DNA of 64,000 nt from Ectothiorhodospiraceae bacterium BW-2 (GTDB taxonomy: Bacteria; Pseudomonadota; Gammaproteobacteria; Thiohalomonadales; Thiohalomonadaceae), in the NCBI GenBank assembly GCA_008375315.1, contig CP032507.1:2789001-2853000 (forward strand), in the 5' to 3' direction. The position numbers and the translations under genes were made by a program. Shown here piece after piece: positions 21,831 to 30,525 of this stretch. Position 1 is the stretch's first letter; every line of letters starts with the position of its first letter. The notes under the pieces were generated by a model that saw only the letters and a program-made list of their open reading frames with translations, was not told the DNA's origin and did no database searches.

Positions 21831-22301
21831 GGCGATAGGAGTCTATGGCTGGTGGTTAAAAAGGGGGCAATTCTACTGGTTATGCGGATGAGTTACCACA
21901 CTTAACCTCTTAACCTCTTTGCAGGTGTGATTCAAGCTGTATCAATCAGCCTTCAGACTGCGCTGAACTAGGCGGGTTTCGTGGGGGCGGGCGTTTGGCA
22001 CAGAGGGCCTTGTCACCCCCACAAAAGTAACGCTACAATTCCAGCATGAACCACGACCCCCCCTTATCTGATCCCAAAACACTGCCGCAGCCAATGGTGC
22101 CGGATATTTAAGAGTAGGCGGGTGGGGAGAGAGGTGCAATAGGGGGCGTGGATGTAAGGGCGGGGGGAGTCTTGTTCATTTCCAACTAAGCGTGATTCAA
22201 ACTGCGCTGTTGAGACGACCCATTCTACTTCCGGTAAGCCATGGCGTGTAGGGGCGGGTTTCAAACCCGCCCCTACGAAACCCGAAATTCCCCCAGCCAC
22301 T
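21831..22301. other. repeat-bearing intergenic region
   Basis: This stretch upstream of prfC holds no credible gene. Short related sequences recur: GTGATTCAA at about 21927 and 22191, and ACTGCGCTG nearby. The palindrome at 22248-22276 closes the region. Open frames here encode the RFGGRGF/GAGLKPAPT type of peptide that arises from such repeats. The right edge is an abrupt junction with the truncated AAA/nuclease copy. Confidence 0.6.
22248..22276. repeat. palindromic interspersed repeat
   Basis: Perfect inverted repeat with arms GTAGGGGCGGGTTT and its complement around a central C. Repeats of this kind occur in many copies between genes in diverse bacteria. It lies 25 bases from the breakpoint of the truncated AAA/nuclease copy and may mark the recombination point. 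Confidence 0.85.
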
Positions 22302-22975
22302 ATCCATCCGATGCCAGCTTTATCATCTCACTACTAGTCTATTTCGGGGTATTGACGATTCAGGATGTCTCGCCACTCGGAAAGCTAAAGGTGACTATCC
22401 CTAATCAGGTAGTTCGTTCGCTCTATATCGACCGCATTCAACAGCAGCTATTAAATGGCTATGAAGATAATAACCGTCAACAGGCGGTGGCAGAGCAGCT
22501 CTATACCGAGGCCGACTTTGAGCCCCTAGCTGACTTTATCGAACAGCGTTTTTATAGCGTGCTTGATAATCGTGATATGCGCTGGAGTAATGAGTTGACG
22601 CTCAAAACCACGCTACTACTACTGCTGACCAATGACCTCTACTACCTGCCGCGCTCAGAATTATCCTTAGGCGGTGGCTATAGTGACCTCCTATTTGAGA
22701 TTCGCCCCGATAAACGGCAGGCACCGCTGTATGACCTGCTATTTGAACTGAAATATCTGTCGCTCAAAGATCTCAAATTGAGCGCAGAGCAGCTAAATGA
22801 GATGAGTCGGGAGCAGCTAGCTGAGTTGGCACCGGTAAAAACGCTACTGGATGAGGCAGAAGGGCAGTTAGCCTCGTATCAGCCGACATTAGAGCAACTT
22901 TTTCCGGCGGTGGCGTGGAAGATAAAATCGTTTGCGGTGGTGAGTCTTGGAACGCGACGGTTGGTGTGGCGTTAG
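22302..22975 (+). pseudogene. 5'-truncated copy of the AAA-ATPase/nuclease gene
   Basis: From 22302 the sequence becomes nearly identical to the 3' part of the genes at 28671 and 30610, starting at ATCCATCCGATGCCAGC. It encodes the last 220 or so residues, including GGGYSDLLFEIRPDKRQAP and LLFELKYLSLKDL (the PD-(D/E)XK nuclease residues), and ends at the same point LVWR. The ATPase half is absent. The open frame continues upstream into repeat DNA from an ATG at 22241, so a short protein could be made, but the missing Walker region argues for a remnant. It is followed by the same palindrome that follows the full-length copies. Confidence 0.85.
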
Positions 22976-22980
22976 GGGTG

Positions 22981-23004
22981 TCGGGTTACGCTGCGCTAAC
23001 CCGA
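22981..23004. repeat. TCGGGTTA palindrome, copy 1
   Basis: 24-base inverted repeat with arms TCGGGTTA/TAACCCGA around a GC-rich centre, immediately after the truncated AAA/nuclease copy. Further copies are at 28547-28570 (opposite orientation), 30455-30478 and 32394-32417, always just past the end of a gene in this cluster. It can form a hairpin and may end transcription or mark unit borders. Confidence 0.9.
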
Positions 23005-23130
23005 CCTACGGTAGGCGCTTTTCTGGTTCCCATGCTCCGGCGTAGGAGTGCGGATATAGGGGTTGTTTTATTAAGCCTATGACAGGTAGAATGGCCGCTC
23101 TCCTGTTAATTACCCAAAGAGACCTACACT

Positions 23131-26100
23131 ATGCCTGCCATCGTGCTCTATCTGCTGCTCATTCCCTTTACACTCTACGCTGAGTGGTTCACTCAACCGC
23201 TGAATGACACCGGCATCACTTGGGGTGGTAACTACTCATCCGGCAATAACACCACCTGTATCGGCGAAACCATCGACGAGCAAGACTGCTCCCACGGTCG
23301 CGATGCCGACCCTGCCACTAATGACGATAGCGACGGTCACGCCGGTTTCAACTTTACCAAAATCAGCGCCACAGGCGAAGAGCTACCCGCCGATGCGACT
23401 GAGTGGAGTTGTGTTAAAGATAATGTCACCGGTCTGATGTGGGAGGTCAAAACCGATGATGGCGGGATTCACGATAAAGATAATACCTATCGGTGGGGAG
23501 GGAAAACAGCGCTGATTCAGGAGGGAGTTGAGTTTGGTACTCGCTACGACGACTGGAACACCTTAGTCGATGGGGCTAATAACAGTAACTTCTGCGGCTA
23601 TAGCGACTGGCGGGTGCCTTCGCGGGAGGAGCTGCGCTCGATTGTTAACTATAGCCGTACCAATCCTGCTATCGATACGGCCTATTTTCCCAATACGGCA
23701 AACAGCTTGTATTGGAGTTCGTCGCCGTACGCTAGCTACTCTGACTATGCGTGGCGACTCTACTTCAACAATGGCTACGATGGCCTCAACGATCGCGATC
23801 TTAGTTATCGCGTGCGGTTGGTGCGTGCCGGACAGTACTTTGGCAATTTGGGGGTGGAGGCAGAGGCCGCACAAGGAGGTAGTTGCCCTAATGGGTTGAT
23901 AGCCACCGCCCCCGATAGCCGCTACAGCGATAATGGCGATGGCACCGTGACCGACCTGCAGACGGGGTTGATGTGGCAGCAGTGCATGGTCGGCCAAAGC
24001 GGTGGTGACTGTAGCAGCGGTAGCGCCACCTTTATGACTTGGGATGCGGCGCTACAAACGCCGCAAGCCTTAAACAGCAGTGGCGGTTTTGCTAGTTACA
24101 CTGACTGGCGTCTGCCCAACATTACTGAGCTGGCCAGTTTGGCGGAGTTGGCTTGTTATAACCCTGCTATTAACCGAAACATCTTTCCCAATACTCCATA
24201 CTCATCCAGTGATGGATATGGCATTACCTGGAGTTCGTCGCCGAACGCTTACAACTCTAACGTTGCGTGGCAACTCTACTTCAGCAATGGCAACGATCTC
24301 ATCAGCGATCGCAATAATAGTTATCGCGTGCGGTTGGTGCGTGCCGGACAGTACTTTGGCAATTTGGATAGCGACGAAGACGGGGTAAGTGATACCGACG
24401 ACAACTGTCCGGCAGTGGTGAATGCGAATCAGGCCAACCGCGACGGCGATAGCGCCGGCGATGCCTGCGATGCTTTTCCCGACGACCCCAATGAGATAGC
24501 CGATAGCGATGGCGATGGAGTAGGGGATAACAGCGACGCCTTCCCCAATGATAGCTCTGAAACGACCGACTCCGACAACGACGGCATCGGCGACAACAGC
24601 GACAACTGCCCCACAGTCGCTAACGCCAGCCAAGACCCAGTGGCCTGTAATGCGGCACCCATAGTTAACGCCGGTAGTGACCTCAGCGTCAACGAAAACA
24701 GCAGCGTCACCCTTAGCGGTACCGCCAGCGACCCCGATGGCACCCTAACCTCCATCCAATGGATCCAAACCAGCGGCAGCCCAACGGTAACCCTCACCGA
24801 CGCCAACAGCGCCACCGCCAGCTTTACCGCGCCAGCTGTCACGAGCACTATCTCCCTTACCTTTAGCCTCACCGCCACCGATAACCTCGGTGCCAGCCGT
24901 AGCGACAGTATCACCCTCACCATTAACGACACCAACCGCGCCCCGACCCTCAGCGGCAGCCCCGCCACCGACCTCTACAGCGGTCAAAACTACCGCTTCA
25001 CCCCAACAGCGAGCGATGCCGATGGCGACTCGCTCACCTTCAGTATTAGCAATAAACCGGCCTGGGCCAGCTTCGATACCAGCAGCGGCACACTGAGCGG
25101 CACTCCGACTACCTTATCAACATACAACAATATCACCATTCGCGTTAGCGACGGCTACCTTAGCGCCAGTTTACCCCCCTTTAACCTTACCGTGACCGTC
25201 CGCCCCGACCTGACCCCGCCACAACTGGAGATAGTCTCGCCAGAAGATGGGCGGCTCGATTATAGACGCATGGCAAACATTATAGCTGACGCCACAGATG
25301 AACAGAGTGGCATAGCCGAAGTTGAAGTACAGTTAATCGATATTACTGAACCCACCCCCTCCTACTGGGGGTTCGCCTTCGGCGACTATACTTGGATTGA
25401 GAGCGAATTTTGGCTACCGCTTACCTATGATAGCGCTCAGGAAAGGTGGGGTATGGCTAGTACCACCAATAATTTGACTAATAACCTCACCGATGGCCAC
25501 ACCTACAGCCTCGTCGCTCGCGCCACCGATAATGCCGGCAACACCACCGAACAGAGCCTCATCTTCGCCAAAGCGGGCACACAAGCCCATACCGAACTGA
25601 GCCTCAACCTCAATAGCCACTCGATCCTCTTTGGTGAAGCGCTCACCGTCAGCGGCCAACTCAAACGCCTGCCCGACATCGGCCTCAACCTAGCTGGCCG
25701 CACCATTCGCCTCACCCTCACCTCCCCAGCGGGAGACAATCTCACCTACGAGATCCAAACCCACAACGCCAGCGGCGAATACCTTTTTAACAACCTAGGC
25801 AGCGCCCTCACCACCCCTGGGCGCTACACCCTCACCATCCTCTCCCCCGAAACCCCACTCCTAGCATCGAGCCAACAGAGCGCCGACCTCGTCGTCGGGC
25901 AGGCGGCGGGATATGCCATCCTAGTGCAAGGGAGTCGTGACGACGACCCCACCAGCATTCCCGCCTACAACCGCACCGCCAACACCCTCTACCACACCCT
26001 CAAACGGCGCGGTTTTGAAGATAGCCACATCACCTACCTCAACGACACCCCCAACCAGAGCGGTATCGAAATCGATGCCACCCCCTCAGTTCCAACCACC

Positions 26101-28545
26101 CTAGAGGCGATTACCGCCCCCGCCCTTATCGAACAACTCAACGCCTCGCCGGCACCGCTGACCCTAATTCTAGTTGACCACGGCGGTCGGGACGAATTCT
26201 ATATCCACGACCAAACACTCACCGCCAGCGCCCTTAACGACGCCCTGACCCAACTCGAAAACCAGCTCACCCCCGAAGCGCTTAGCCACCCGCGCACCAT
26301 TATCTACGGTGCTTGCAAAAGCGGCAGCTTTATCAATGACCTCAGCCAACGCTCATCAGACGACAACGCCGGTCGCATTATCATCACCGCCTCAGCCGTT
26401 AACGAAGATAGCTATCGCGGTGAACGGGATGAGAACAACATCCAAGAGGGCGAAGCGTTCCTCGCCGCTCTATTTAACCAACTCGGACGCGGCAAGAGCT
26501 ACCGCGAAGCATTTGAACTAGCGACCGAAGAGATAGAGAACTTTACCCAAACTAAAAACAGCAACCGTCTCAACCGCCCCTTGCCACCATTTCTCGACTT
26601 TGCTACCCAACACCCACACCTTGACGACATCGGCGATGGTCGCGGCGAAAACGAACTGCTCCGTCATGGACAAAGAGCCGCCAACTACTACCTTGGCGCT
26701 GGACTTATCGAAACCAACTCCGCCGAATTTCCAGCCGAAGTGGCCGCCACCGCCCCGCCCCAAATACTGAGCGATACCGCCATCACCCTCTGGGCCAGAG
26801 CCACCAACCCCACCGATGCCGAGGGCGCTTGGGTCGATATCCGCTCCCCGAGTCTGATTCTCGAACAGAGCGACAGCGGCCAACAACAACAAGTGGACAT
26901 CCCGCGCCACCCACTCACCCCAACAGAGGAGGGGCGCTGGGAACTCACCCTCGACCCCAACAACCCCGCCTACAGCGAAGCGGGAATGTACGAAGTACGC
27001 TACACCATCAAAGATATCGATAACATCCTCTCCCCAGCCGTGAGCGCCATCTTCTACCGCCCATTAGCGGGCAACAACGCCCCCAGCGCCCCCACCCCCC
27101 ACCCCGTTACCGAGGCCACCACCAGCCTGATCCTGCGCTGGAACGACACGACCGACCCCGAAGAGCACCTCTTTAGCTACTCGATTCGCATTAGCAGAGA
27201 TAACCGCACCGACAGTGACGGGGCGCTACAGAGTCCCGTTTACCAACAACACCTTCTCACCACCCCGTTTGCACTCATAGATCAGAGTGCGGGGCTAGAA
27301 GATATCACCCCCTACTACTGGCAAGTCAGCGTAACCGACCAGTATGGCGCAACCAGCCACAGCCCCCTCCAAAACTTCACCCCCAACAACAGCAATGGCG
27401 TTCGTAGCCTGATAAGTGGCGACCTCTACCGTGACGACAACGGCAACTACACCCCGTTAGCCAGCGCCAACCTGCTGCTAGACCAAAACCAACTGACCCT
27501 CCTTAGCGACAGCTCAGGGCGCTTTGCCATCGAAACCGCCCCGCTGACCCAAAACCAGAGTGACACCTTCACCATCAACAGCGACACCACCATCACCTAC
27601 CAACGGAACATTGAGCTGCAACCCGGGCAGAGCCAACGACTCTACCTCACCCTAAACCCGCCTACCGGCAACGATACCATCCTGCCGCAGATCACCCTTC
27701 ATGGCGAGCGCACGATTACCCTCACTGCCGGAGAGAGCTTCACCGACCCCGGAGCTACCGCCAGCGATAACATCGACGGCGACCTAACCGCCAACCTCAC
27801 CACTAGCGGCACAGTGAACCACAACGCCCCCGGAACCTACACCCTAACCTATGTCGTCACCGACAGCAGCGGCAATATCAGCTCAACCAGCCGCACCATC
27901 ATCGTAGAAGCCGACCCCAACGCCACCGCAACAGCGGTTGATACCTCGACCGATACCGATGCCAATACCGCCACCGATACAGCGACCGATACTGCGACCG
28001 ATACTGCGACCGATACCGCCACCGATACCGCCACCGATACCAACACCCCTAACAGACAAACCCTCAACCTGACTGAAGGCTGGAACCTCATCGCCCTCCA
28101 CACCACCCCCGACGATAGCACCACCGTTGCCAACCACTTCACCGACAGCGCCATTGAGCGACTGTTTGCTTTTATTGATAATAGCTGGCAGTTCTATGAT
28201 CGAGCTAGCAATAGCGGCTCACTCGGCATAATGCCACTCAATCAGCTACGCAATCGCGGCGTATGGGTTAAGATAGCCAACGGCGGCATGACCGGCGTCA
28301 CCCTAAACGGCAGCAGCCAAAACCTCGATATCACCACCCTCAGCAGCGGCTGGAATCTAATGGGTGCCGGCAGCAGTGATATCACAGTCACCGACTTTGT
28401 CGCCCAATTCAGCAGCCAAGCTCTACAACCGCAGCGCCTGTTCGCATTTATCAATAACAGCTGGAGCTTTGCCGATGTGGCCGGCAGCAGTGGCTCACTC
28501 AACACCATCACCGCCGGACAGGGAGTATGGGTCTACCTACAGTAG
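23131..28545 (+). CDS. secreted multidomain protein: two DUF1566 variable domains, TSP3 repeats, C13 caspase-like protease
   Basis: 1804 residues with a signal peptide (about 1-17, ending LYA). Two DUF1566/C-type-lectin-like domains follow (about 85-238 and 255-410), each with TGLMW and ending RVRLVRAGQ. Next come calcium-type DxDxDG repeats of thrombospondin type 3 (about 413-505), Ig/cadherin-like domains (about 510-690 and 700-920), and a legumain/C13-like peptidase (about 925-1150). Its apparent dyad is H1017 in LVDHGGRDEF and C1062 in YGACKSGSF. Fibronectin-like and dockerin-like regions, a DUF5011 Ig-like domain (about 1514-1594), a TDTA linker and two C-terminal SGWNL repeats complete it. 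The lectin-like domains carry adenine-biased variable blocks (see separate entries). A role in surface recognition linked to proteolysis is inferred. No anchor or sorting signal was recognised at the C-terminus. Confidence 0.85.
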   Translation: MPAIVLYLLLIPFTLYAEWFTQPLNDTGITWGGNYSSGNNTTCIGETIDEQDCSHGRDADPATNDDSDGHAGFNFTKISATGEELPADATEWSCVKDNVTGLMWEVKTDDGGIHDKDNTYRWGGKTALIQEGVEFGTRYDDWNTLVDGANNSNFCGYSDWRVPSREELRSIVNYSRTNPAIDTAYFPNTANSLYWSSSPYASYSDYAWRLYFNNGYDGLNDRDLSYRVRLVRAGQYFGNLGVEAEAAQGGSCPNGLIATAPDSRYSDNGDGTVTDLQTGLMWQQCMVGQSGGDCSSGSATFMTWDAALQTPQALNSSGGFASYTDWRLPNITELASLAELACYNPAINRNIFPNTPYSSSDGYGITWSSSPNAYNSNVAWQLYFSNGNDLISDRNNSYRVRLVRAGQYFGNLDSDEDGVSDTDDNCPAVVNANQANRDGDSAGDACDAFPDDPNEIADSDGDGVGDNSDAFPNDSSETTDSDNDGIGDNSDNCPTVANASQDPVACNAAPIVNAGSDLSVNENSSVTLSGTASDPDGTLTSIQWIQTSGSPTVTLTDANSATASFTAPAVTSTISLTFSLTATDNLGASRSDSITLTINDTNRAPTLSGSPATDLYSGQNYRFTPTASDADGDSLTFSISNKPAWASFDTSSGTLSGTPTTLSTYNNITIRVSDGYLSASLPPFNLTVTVRPDLTPPQLEIVSPEDGRLDYRRMANIIADATDEQSGIAEVEVQLIDITEPTPSYWGFAFGDYTWIESEFWLPLTYDSAQERWGMASTTNNLTNNLTDGHTYSLVARATDNAGNTTEQSLIFAKAGTQAHTELSLNLNSHSILFGEALTVSGQLKRLPDIGLNLAGRTIRLTLTSPAGDNLTYEIQTHNASGEYLFNNLGSALTTPGRYTLTILSPETPLLASSQQSADLVVGQAAGYAILVQGSRDDDPTSIPAYNRTANTLYHTLKRRGFEDSHITYLNDTPNQSGIEIDATPSVPTTLEAITAPALIEQLNASPAPLTLILVDHGGRDEFYIHDQTLTASALNDALTQLENQLTPEALSHPRTIIYGACKSGSFINDLSQRSSDDNAGRIIITASAVNEDSYRGERDENNIQEGEAFLAALFNQLGRGKSYREAFELATEEIENFTQTKNSNRLNRPLPPFLDFATQHPHLDDIGDGRGENELLRHGQRAANYYLGAGLIETNSAEFPAEVAATAPPQILSDTAITLWARATNPTDAEGAWVDIRSPSLILEQSDSGQQQQVDIPRHPLTPTEEGRWELTLDPNNPAYSEAGMYEVRYTIKDIDNILSPAVSAIFYRPLAGNNAPSAPTPHPVTEATTSLILRWNDTTDPEEHLFSYSIRISRDNRTDSDGALQSPVYQQHLLTTPFALIDQSAGLEDITPYYWQVSVTDQYGATSHSPLQNFTPNNSNGVRSLISGDLYRDDNGNYTPLASANLLLDQNQLTLLSDSSGRFAIETAPLTQNQSDTFTINSDTTITYQRNIELQPGQSQRLYLTLNPPTGNDTILPQITLHGERTITLTAGESFTDPGATASDNIDGDLTANLTTSGTVNHNAPGTYTLTYVVTDSSGNISSTSRTIIVEADPNATATAVDTSTDTDANTATDTATDTATDTATDTATDTATDTNTPNRQTLNLTEGWNLIALHTTPDDSTTVANHFTDSAIERLFAFIDNSWQFYDRASNSGSLGIMPLNQLRNRGVWVKIANGGMTGVTLNGSSQNLDITTLSSGWNLMGAGSSDITVTDFVAQFSSQALQPQRLFAFINNSWSFADVAGSSGSLNTITAGQGVWVYLQ
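23713..23851 (+). other. candidate diversity-generating retroelement variable repeat, copy 1
   Basis: 139-base block at the end of the first DUF1566 domain. It aligns without gaps to 24229-24367. The variable core is 23728-23802 (residues 200-224). The 15 bases before it and 49 bases after it (23803-23851) are identical in both copies, and similarity stops at both ends. In the core, 13 codons differ at 17 bases, never at third positions. Twelve are NNC or NNT, as expected if template AAC/AAT codons were mutated at their adenines. Confidence 0.85.
24229..24367 (+). other. candidate diversity-generating retroelement variable repeat, copy 2
   Basis: Second 139-base block, at the end of the second DUF1566 domain, with core 24244-24318 (residues 372-396). 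It is richer in Asn codons (AAC/AAT) than copy 1 and may be nearer to the template. Of the 17 differences, 14 have an adenine in one of the two copies; the other three (T/G, G/C, G/T) fit a template adenine changed in both. The DNA before 24229 is a diverged DUF1566 with different spacing, so the identity of the block is not explained by recent whole-domain duplication. Confidence 0.85.
27970..28041 (+). repeat. 12-bp tandem repeat coding an Ala-Thr-Asp-Thr linker
   Basis: Six in-frame copies of a 12-base unit (GCN ACC GAT ACN) in the large secreted protein, between the DUF5011 domain and the C-terminal SGWNL repeats. It is a flexible, acidic, hydroxyl-rich linker that is prone to length change by slippage without loss of frame. 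Confidence 0.95.
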
Positions 28546-28670: not shown

Positions 28671-30473
28671 ATGGTAAACATCTCATATGGTTTAGGTCAC
28701 TTTAAAACCCTCAGAGAGGAGGGTGGACTCTATTTTGATCGTACCGACCTGCTGCACGAATTAGAGGCGGCAGGACGGCAGCTACTATTTCTACGCCCGC
28801 GCCGCTTTGGCAAAACGCTGTGGCTAACGCTGCTAGAGAGCTACTATGACATTGACGCAGCCGAACAATTTGAGCCCCTGTTTGGCGATTTAGCGATAGG
28901 GCAAAACCCGACCCCGAATCGTAACCGCTACTTTATGCTGAAATGGAACTTTTCTGTCATCGATCCAAGTGGCGATTTAGCCCATATTAGCCGCTCTTTA
29001 CATAACCATCTGAACAGCTCAATTGAACGCTTTTGCAACAGATATCGTCAATGGCTGAACCGGTCGGTTCAAATTGACCCGCAAGATGGGATACACAGTT
29101 TTGAGAATCTGTTAGGTGAGTTGGCGGCGTATGATACTCCGCTCTACCTGCTGATAGACGAATACGACAACTTTGCTAACGAGGTGTTAACCAGTCGTGA
29201 GCATGGCAGAAAGCGCTATAACGAACTGGTAAAAGGCGAAGGGGTGATTAAAACCGTCTTTAAAGCGGTTAAAGCGGCGACCGATGGCCTAGGCTTAGAG
29301 CGAGTCTTTATCACCGGCGTCTCACCGGTGGTGATGAGCGATATCACCAGCGGCTACAATGTGGCGAAAAACATCAGTCAGCGGCCACACTTTGCCAAAC
29401 TCTGCGGTTTTACCGGTGAAGAGGTGATGCAGCTTAATCGCCAAATAGCGCTAGAGTGCGAGCTGCCAGAGGGTGCGGCAGAGGAGGCGATGTCGCTGAT
29501 GCAGAACTTCTATAACGGCTACCGTTTTAGTGTTGATGATACCACCCGACTCTACAACCCGACACTCTGCCTCTACTTTTGGGATGAGTGGCAGCAGCTG
29601 TGTCGCTACCCTAATGAGCTGTTAGATGACAATTTAGCGATGGACAAAAACCGGCTACGCTATATCGCCGCACTACCGCATGGGGCTGAGGTAATTGAAG
29701 CAGCGCTCAATCCGCAGCAGTCGCTATGGGTAGCTAAGCTTGCACAAAATTTTGGCGTTAAAGCGATGCTAAACGATCCGCCTGATGCCAGCTTTATCAT
29801 CTCACTGCTGGTCTATTTCGGGGTATTGACGATTCAGGATGTCTCGCCACTCGGAAAGCTAAAGGTGACTATCCCTAATCAGGTAGTTCGTTCGCTCTAT
29901 ATCGACCGGATTCAGCAGCAGCTGCTCAATGGCTATGAAGATAATAACCGGCAGCAGGCGGTGGCGGAGCAGCTCTATACCGAGGCTGACTTTGAACCCC
30001 TAGCCGACTTTATCGAACAGCGTTTTTATAGCGTGCTCGATAATCGTGATATGCGCTGGAGTAATGAGCTGACGCTCAAAACTACGCTACTGTTGCTGCT
30101 GACCAATGATCTCTACTACCTGCCGCGCTCGGAGCTCTCCTTAGGCGGCGGCTATAGTGACCTGCTATTTGAGATTCGCCCCGATAAACGGCAGGCACCG
30201 CTGTATGACCTGCTATTTGAGCTGAAATATCTGGCACTTAAAGATCTCAAATTAAGCGCAGAACAGCTATCTGATATGAGCCGAGAGCAGCTAGCTGAGT
30301 TGAAACCGGTAAAAACGCTACTGGATGAGGCAGAGCGGCAGTTGGCCACCTATCAGCCGACATTAGAGCAGCTCTTTCCGGCGGTGGAGTGGAAGATAAA
30401 ATCGTTTGCGGTGGTGAGTCTTGGAATACGACGACTGGTATGGCGCGAGGGTTGTCGGGTTACGCTGCGCTAA
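28671..30473 (+). CDS. AAA-ATPase-like / PD-(D/E)XK nuclease domain protein, paralogue 1
   Basis: 600 residues. The N-terminal ATPase-like domain (AAA-ATPase_like family) has Walker A RPRRFGKTLWL near residue 42 and Walker B LYLLIDEYDNFANEV near 160. The C-terminal domain (about 480-560) has GGYSDLLFEIRPD and LLFELKYLALKDL, the D and ExK of a PD-(D/E)XK nuclease fold (PDDEXK_9-like). Genes of this family occur in many copies in some bacteria; their function is not established. The leader AATTAAGGATCGCAC before the ATG is shared with paralogue 2. The last codons run into the palindrome at 30455, so the end differs from the LVWR end of the other copies. It has no partner gene beyond its own paralogues. 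Confidence 0.88.
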   Translation: MVNISYGLGHFKTLREEGGLYFDRTDLLHELEAAGRQLLFLRPRRFGKTLWLTLLESYYDIDAAEQFEPLFGDLAIGQNPTPNRNRYFMLKWNFSVIDPSGDLAHISRSLHNHLNSSIERFCNRYRQWLNRSVQIDPQDGIHSFENLLGELAAYDTPLYLLIDEYDNFANEVLTSREHGRKRYNELVKGEGVIKTVFKAVKAATDGLGLERVFITGVSPVVMSDITSGYNVAKNISQRPHFAKLCGFTGEEVMQLNRQIALECELPEGAAEEAMSLMQNFYNGYRFSVDDTTRLYNPTLCLYFWDEWQQLCRYPNELLDDNLAMDKNRLRYIAALPHGAEVIEAALNPQQSLWVAKLAQNFGVKAMLNDPPDASFIISLLVYFGVLTIQDVSPLGKLKVTIPNQVVRSLYIDRIQQQLLNGYEDNNRQQAVAEQLYTEADFEPLADFIEQRFYSVLDNRDMRWSNELTLKTTLLLLLTNDLYYLPRSELSLGGGYSDLLFEIRPDKRQAPLYDLLFELKYLALKDLKLSAEQLSDMSREQLAELKPVKTLLDEAERQLATYQPTLEQLFPAVEWKIKSFAVVSLGIRRLVWREGCRVTLR

Positions 30474-30478
30474 CCCGA
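30455..30478. repeat. TCGGGTTA palindrome, copy 3
   Basis: Same palindrome as at 22981, here providing the final codons and stop of the AAA/nuclease paralogue 1. The short shared tail GACCTACGGTAGGCGCTTTT after it is also found after copy 1, so the repeat unit extends beyond the palindrome. Confidence 0.9.
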
Positions 30479-30525
30479 CCTACGGTAGGCGCTTTTTGTC
30501 TGGGTATTCTGGTTCTCTTGGTCAC

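Follow-up and report, generated by a model that had tools for sequence, protein, structure and literature searches.

A large protein encoded in the 64,000-nucleotide stretch analysed here (the window, C1:2789001-2853000) carries two variable repeats, VR1 and VR2, that were very probably written by DGR-A, a diversity-generating retroelement (DGR) whose template, TR-A, lies 1.17 Mb from the gene, measured along the contig. VR1 and VR2 together differ from TR-A at 26 bases, all 26 of them adenines in the template, and the 166 non-adenine sites are unchanged. This pattern supports the original prediction that two similar blocks in one gene are products of a DGR. We also consider it likely, from the same sequence comparisons, that DGR-A continues to serve both repeats in trans.

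Two variable repeats in one gene

The target gene (23131..28545; forward strand, as are all features of the window named here) encodes 1804 aa. Its N-terminus was judged by eye to be signal-peptide-like, and the protein is probably secreted. Pfam domains comprise two Lcl_C (DUF1566) domains, TSP3 repeats and PKD-like, He_PIG and bacterial-surface Ig-like domains, together with a partial match to Peptidase_C13 above its cut-off. PF07603 (Lcl_C) matches two stretches with 229.3 bits against a cut-off of 34.9, corresponding to domain 1 (23410..23826) and domain 2 (23941..24342), which are paralogues of targets A and C, respectively, two genes adjoining TR-A. VR1 (23713..23832) and VR2 (24229..24348) are each 120 bp long and differ from TR-A at 16 and 10 bases. 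Each is followed by a 19-bp tail (23833..23851 and 24349..24367). VR1 spans residues 195-234 and VR2 residues 367-406 of 1804; they start 11% and 20% into the protein, with about 1,400 more residues behind them and the C-terminus far off.

The blocks formed by repeat and tail (23713-23851 and 24229-24367) had been described from the letters alone, and almost every detail of that description was reproduced. The two 139-base blocks lie in frame at a spacing of 516 bases, which is divisible by three; they align without a gap and differ at 17 bases in 13 codons, solely at codon positions 1 or 2. The third base is C or T in twelve of these codons, and the remaining one is CGA/CAA. One copy has A at 14 of the 17 differences, and neither has it at 23746, 23782 and 23783. 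The 15 leading bases are identical and similarity ends at both sides of the blocks; the trailing identical run, given as 49 bases, is 50 bases long (23802-23851).

The 150 bases 5' of the target gene (22981-23130) are identical at 141 of 150 positions to those 5' of target A (L016:9872, minus strand), an identity that exceeds that of the coding part. Perhaps the two genes have a promoter in common.

Template and machinery of DGR-A

We searched the whole genome, which consists of one contig (C1; 4,074,140 bases, completeness 99.73). With VR1 as query, relatives were found at 3.980-3.985 Mb on the minus strand, surrounding an RVT_1 protein. This DGR-A locus (L016; C1 about 3.983-3.985 Mb, minus strand) contains avd, TR-A and a reverse transcriptase (RT) gene. 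The order is target A (235 aa, Lcl_C, with its variable repeat VRA at its end), avd (123 aa), TR-A (C1:3984449-3984568, minus strand, 120 bp), RT-A (520 aa) and target C (Lcl_C), whose VR is split by a transposase-like ORF of 414 aa. Translated in the VR frame, TR-A reads WSSSPNANNSNNAWQLNFNNGNDNNNNRNNSYRVRLVRAG. A 139-base template with AAC, AAT or CAA at the variable codons had been predicted; TR-A has these codons, but only the first 120 bases match and the last 19 do not. No second good template for VR1 or VR2 was found in the whole-genome search.

DGR-type RTs are marked by an (I/L/V)GxxxSQ motif and a YxDD-type box. RT-A matches PF00078 (RVT_1) with 60.6 bits against a cut-off of 29.6 and has the motifs IGNLTSQ and FVDD. 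A DGR-type RT next to the template had been foreseen, and an RVT_1 protein with IGNLTSQ does adjoin TR-A, as does a bAvd-family gene. The Avd protein scores 48.9 bits against PF22296 (bAvd), above the cut-off of 40, and 49.4 bits against NF033474 (Avd equivalog), below the cut-off of 80. A DGR local to the window was considered and rejected, as searches with VR1, TR-A and RVT_1 found no template or RT near the target gene; it is on this ground that we infer action in trans.

Several further features of the locus were recorded. Only 8 bases separate TR-A from the apparent start of the RT gene (L016:8441-8569), so that a long spacer of the BPP-1 type is either lacking or lies inside the RT gene; the corresponding gap in a second element, DGR-B, is about 6 to 14 bases (L017:6771-6904, start codon picked by hand). 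RT-A has a C-terminal extension (residues about 390-520) that RT-B shares and the RTs of DGR-C and DGR-D lack. The extension has no Pfam match; the C-terminus of RT-A may resemble MutS, and our literature search for DGRs with MutS found nothing relevant. The transposase-like ORF in the VR of target C (L016:4643-6891) has GCGATAAT on either side, as would an insertion that made an 8-bp target duplication, and the same 414-aa ORF occurs at L166:5697-6941.

RT relatives in genome contigs comprised 125 matched stretches, of which 90 were confirmed; among the 80 kept, best-segment identity did not exceed 36%. At E<=1e-40, an RT-A-like match was present only in the genome itself among 20 family genomes (own included). 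A profile of the four RTs of this genome, at E<=1e-20, matched in 5 of the 20 (own, G008, G011, G012 and G019).

Changes confined to template adenines

Compared with TR-A, changes fall at template A in 16/16 cases in VR1, 10/10 in VR2, 11/11 in VRA and 13/13 in the IS-split VR of target C, compared over its two pieces (50/50 in all). In VR1, VR2 and VRA alike, 83 of 83 non-A sites equal the template. TR-A has 37 A in 120 bases, and the chance that all 26 changes in VR1 and VR2 would fall at A is about 5e-14 (the product of 6.7e-9 and 7.8e-6). Since 35 of the 37 A lie at codon positions 1 or 2, the template also accounts for the codon-position bias of the VR differences. That bias, taken alone, would suit an ordinary duplication of the lectin block and subsequent positive selection on first and second codon positions. 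We regard this explanation as extremely improbable and rejected it on the template match: it does not account for 26 of 26 changes at template A, and the flank of domain 1 diverges mainly at third positions. No TR-A codon can be converted to a stop by changes at A.

Lcl_C matches in the genome number 19, two of them being the templates themselves. For three Lcl_C paralogues without a well-matching template, the best ungapped place against TR-B (125 bases) gave mismatches at A in 19/50 cases (2.536 Mb), 23/71 (2.662 Mb) and 18/44 (0.875 Mb). This is the ordinary pattern that the original prediction had named as speaking against DGR action.

The 3' boundary is sharp. No mutation falls in the final 31 bases of VR1, VR2 or VRA, or in those of the split VR's second piece, and at the junction the VRs read GCCGGA|CAGTA and TR-A reads GCCGGA|GCGTA. 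The tail that follows (CAGTAC...) is common to VR-bearing genes and lies outside the template match; that of VR1 is identical in 19 of 19 bases to those of VR2 and the IS-split VR, and target A has a TAA stop there. Loss of such a stop is a plausible step toward domain fusion, and the tail after VR1 is a possible IMH side. When five tails were folded with RNA parameters, GCCGGA-TTTGGC pairing appeared after VR1 and VRA, dependent on G-U pairs, and no clear BPP-1-like DNA hairpin was recognised after the VRs.

The tail, which TR-A does not explain, counts against the DGR-A account and points to some exchange or constraint among the genes that carry it. It would suit gene conversion among VR-bearing paralogues, spreading VR variants without reverse transcription. 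Such conversion creates no new A-only changes, however, and each VR has its own set of changes, with overlaps near chance in 6/6 pairs; we therefore think gene conversion very unlikely as the source of VR1 and VR2, and retain writing from TR-A as the preferred reading.

Rewriting relative to the flanks

The 5' part of domain 1 is identical to target A at 484 of 581 aligned bases (83%), and 61 of the 97 changes are at third positions. The 330 bases 5' of VR2 align to target C with 54 gap columns and an identity of 80% over the aligned bases (243/303). With flanks so diverged and the non-A sites intact, we place the copying of the VRs from the template after flank divergence, or well after the bulk of it. 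On the scale of flank divergence, the rewriting of VR1 and VR2 is thus recent, as far as sequence comparison can date it. The flanks in this way provide an internal clock for two sites rewritten from a template more than 1 Mb off, within one protein and one sequence.

VR1 and VR2 share 6 changed sites against 4.3 expected (P 0.19), with the same base at 3. Each of the six VR pairs overlaps slightly more than expected (P from 0.19 to 0.35), another point that counts against the DGR-A account; for this test the split VR was trimmed at 91 bases, so one site past the IS boundary was counted (14 instead of 13). At sites changed in both VRs of a pair, the base agrees in 17 of 35 cases, close to the 45% predicted from the make-up of the changes. 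These near-chance overlaps fit separate homing events, some sites perhaps changing more readily than others, and in their sequences VR1 and VR2 look like independent products.

Other DGRs and remote repeats in the genome

Four loci in the genome have avd, a template and an RT with the DGR motif. Besides DGR-A (3.98 Mb), DGR-B (2.49 Mb; L017, C1:2487000-2503000) also has DUF1566 targets, with two local VRs and two remote ones (C1:3520567-3520697 and C1:366285-366422), and its RT is 51-54% identical to RT-A. DGR-C (0.868 Mb; L172:7616-9005) and DGR-D (0.997 Mb; L173:5407-6767) have FGE-sulfatase targets, those of DGR-D fused to a caspase domain; eight VRs were counted for the two, one of them at 1.99 Mb. 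The VR total is at least 16. Over 16 VRs, 238 of 243 differences fall at template A (50/50 for DGR-A, 48/49 for DGR-B, 77/79 for DGR-C and 63/65 for DGR-D). Three VR loci lie more than 1 Mb from their template, namely the target gene (1.17 Mb from TR-A) and the loci at 3.52 and 0.37 Mb, which match TR-B at 2.49 Mb. TR-D (0.996 Mb) has VRs at 1.99 Mb, just under 1 Mb away, and at 0.86 Mb.

These remote repeats bear on a rival that concerns present action, not the origin of the VRs: VR1 and VR2 may be relics, written while the gene or its parts lay in the DGR-A cassette and no longer diversified since the move to 2.81 Mb. A move of the gene later than its last rewriting would make action in trans unnecessary. 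Both domains do have paralogues in that cassette, and 724-bp direct repeats, 92% identical, flank the target gene and suggest rearrangement. The left copy (22299..23022) overlaps a PDDEXK_9 ORF resembling the 3' part of an AAA-ATPase_like gene; the right copy (29773..30496) covers the 3' part of the AAA-ATPase_like/PDDEXK_9 gene 28671-30473 plus 23 bases past it. A relic would have had little time for decay, however, with 0 of 166 non-A sites changed in VR1 and VR2 together. Moreover, the remote TR-B repeats (0.37 and 3.52 Mb) have 28 of 29 changes at A and those of TR-D (1.99 and 0.86 Mb) 36 of 36, so that clean VRs far from their template are usual in this genome. We consider the relic unlikely and prefer continued service by DGR-A.

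Two asparagine-rich, template-like sequences were also found. One (C1:896594-896706) lies beside an RT remnant (896715-897068); the other (C1:247920-248050) has RVT_1 proteins without the DGR motif within about 10 kb. No intact RT with the DGR motif was found beside either. The 896.6-kb and 248-kb sequences show 40 and 39 mismatches to TR-C (6 and 5 at A) and 24 and 23 to TR-D (4 and 3 at A), respectively. They were treated as templates, not VRs. The VR counts omit both of them, together with a 57-bp partial match (987461-987517) and cross-matches between templates. Another RT remnant lies at 993131-993394.

Pairing and fold of the lectin domains

Domain 1 resembles target A and domain 2 resembles target C. 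At DGR-A and DGR-B the two lectin types are separate genes flanking avd-TR-RT; in the target gene they are fused in frame. A further fused Lcl_C pair lies at L016:10362-13145 and was unmatched in searches with TR-A and TR-B. Neighbouring pairs are also present at 2.536 Mb; genome G011 has them at four places, and at one of these the pair shares a single open frame. The domain pair is thus more widespread than the DGR.

An AlphaFold model of domain 2 (23869-24366, 30-row alignment, pLDDT 85.4) has a C-type-lectin fold; a two-domain model (pLDDT 51.5) was set aside. Foldseek matched the domain-2 model at E<=0.001 to a single structure, 8q4e, which is the C-terminal domain of Lcl. VIA-align gave Z 12.6 with 8q4e (116 residues, rmsd 3.0), Z 9.6 with TvpA 2y3c (134 residues, rmsd 3.5) and Z 9.0 with Mtd 1yu3 (128 residues, rmsd 3.3). 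Many other lectin-fold chains scored on a level with TvpA and Mtd. A phmmer search of the PDB with domain 2 gave nothing convincing, and profile A1 matched 8q4e at E 0.016.

Domain 2 had no match in 50,697 phage records. In viral contigs, single-sequence scans with either domain and a scan with the template-core pattern gave none; a profile scan found 49 loci with domain relatives. Among plasmids, 64 records had distant domain relatives, each under 60% identity. The domain family is therefore present in phages and plasmids too, and nothing in the phage or plasmid scans linked the target gene to either.

Together, these observations suggest how the system would work. DGR-A would transcribe TR-A, and from the transcript RT and Avd would make cDNA in which a random base is placed opposite each template adenine. 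This cDNA would replace VR1 or VR2, each independently, in the gene at 2.81 Mb, and up to 17 codons within the first 87 bases of each VR could be randomised, with stops impossible. The double-VR target would have arisen when lectin domains of type 1 and type 2 became joined in frame. The encoded protein, probably secreted, would have a changeable binding surface on each of its two C-type-lectin domains. We infer independent homing and the binding role, and the variable residues may, on the modelled fold, form that surface. Two independently variable lectin domains per chain would multiply, not add, the possible binding surfaces.

Comparison with known systems

Targets with several VRs, remote targets and DUF1566 targets have each been described in print, and the target gene thus exemplifies a known kind of system. 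DUF1566 had been named beforehand as a known DGR target type and is a common one (PMC4159848, PMC6642488). Among the closest known systems are DGRs 4/5 of Thiohalocapsa PB-PSB1, described as having tandem CLec domains and several VRs in one gene (PMC10907252). As here, the Thiohalocapsa VRs are reported to equal a distant template at every non-A site, there are several DGRs per genome, and trans action was inferred for some loci (PMC10907252). In that account, however, a vWA and three CLec domains, a conflict system and clade 5 RTs are involved (PMC10907252), whereas the large protein studied here carries two DUF1566 domains toward its N-terminus. A three-VR ORF of Marichromatium purpuratum likewise has several VRs in tandem paralogous domains of one ORF, but its domains are given as FGE-sulfatase, not DUF1566 (PMC3521204). 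Vibrio cholerae and Stenotrophomonas DGRs are reported with DUF1566 targets and several VRs per DGR, but with the VRs in separate ORFs (PMC6642488); in the same survey, 31 of 271 multi-VR DGRs had VRs in one ORF.

Remote VR genes are reported from Treponema denticola (PMC4891356) and cyanobacteria (PMC7517822), and a remote VR of Pseudogulbenkiania lies >370 kb away, the largest distance reported in PMC3521204. VRs have been described as almost confined to the region of the gene's 3' end, where the cyanobacterial remote ones also lie (PMC7517822), in contrast to VR1 and VR2. The avd-TR-RT order of DGR-A is that described for BPP-1, for which a spacer between TR and brt is also described (PMC12875486); none is evident in DGR-A. 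Like domain 2, BPP-1 Mtd (1yu3) and TvpA (2y3c) have a C-type-lectin fold. Mtd and TvpA each have a single C-terminal VR and a local template. In the open-licence literature that was searched, the combination of a 1.17-Mb template distance, two internal VRs and a fused DUF1566 pair was not found.

Orientation relative to replication

With four DGRs, 16 VRs and two template-like sequences, the genome offers a natural test bed for effects of position and replication direction on DGR targets. Such effects were measured with a BPP-1 system reconstituted in E. coli, in which co-directional targets are reported to be edited 7.6 to 24.6 times more (PMC12875486). In the genome studied here, dnaA lies at 1.679 Mb and GC skew is positive in 12/12 samples taken between 1.8 and 3.1 Mb and negative in 25/28 others, which places the origin near 1.70-1.80 Mb and the terminus near 3.15-3.20 Mb. 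Relative to the inferred fork, 15 of the 16 VRs are co-directional, the exception being 867067-867196, an orientation that fits the reported preference (PMC12875486). The same holds for 11 of 12 loci (more than 5 kb apart, the mixed DGR-C locus scored against), compared with 356 of 541 long ORFs (66%) sampled more than 60 kb from the origin. Binomial P is 0.012 for the VRs, which are non-independent, and 0.048 for the loci, in a test conceived post hoc. A survey of natural VR orientation was not found in the open-licence literature that was searched.

A chromosome-wide network could be imagined, in which templates serve scattered VRs and VR genes are kept co-directional as the cDNA enters a lagging-strand gap. 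In that case a single template would edit both sites of a distant gene, and position and direction would determine the rates. We advance this only tentatively and think it doubtful, because the inferred replichores are unequal (about 1.4 and 2.7 Mb) and the loci partly clustered, six of the 12 lying within 0.14 Mb (0.858-0.998 Mb). Placing the terminus opposite the origin instead would make the VR at 3.52 Mb head-on and leave 14 of 16 co-directional. DGR loci often show local skew of opposite sign, which we put down to C-rich target genes.
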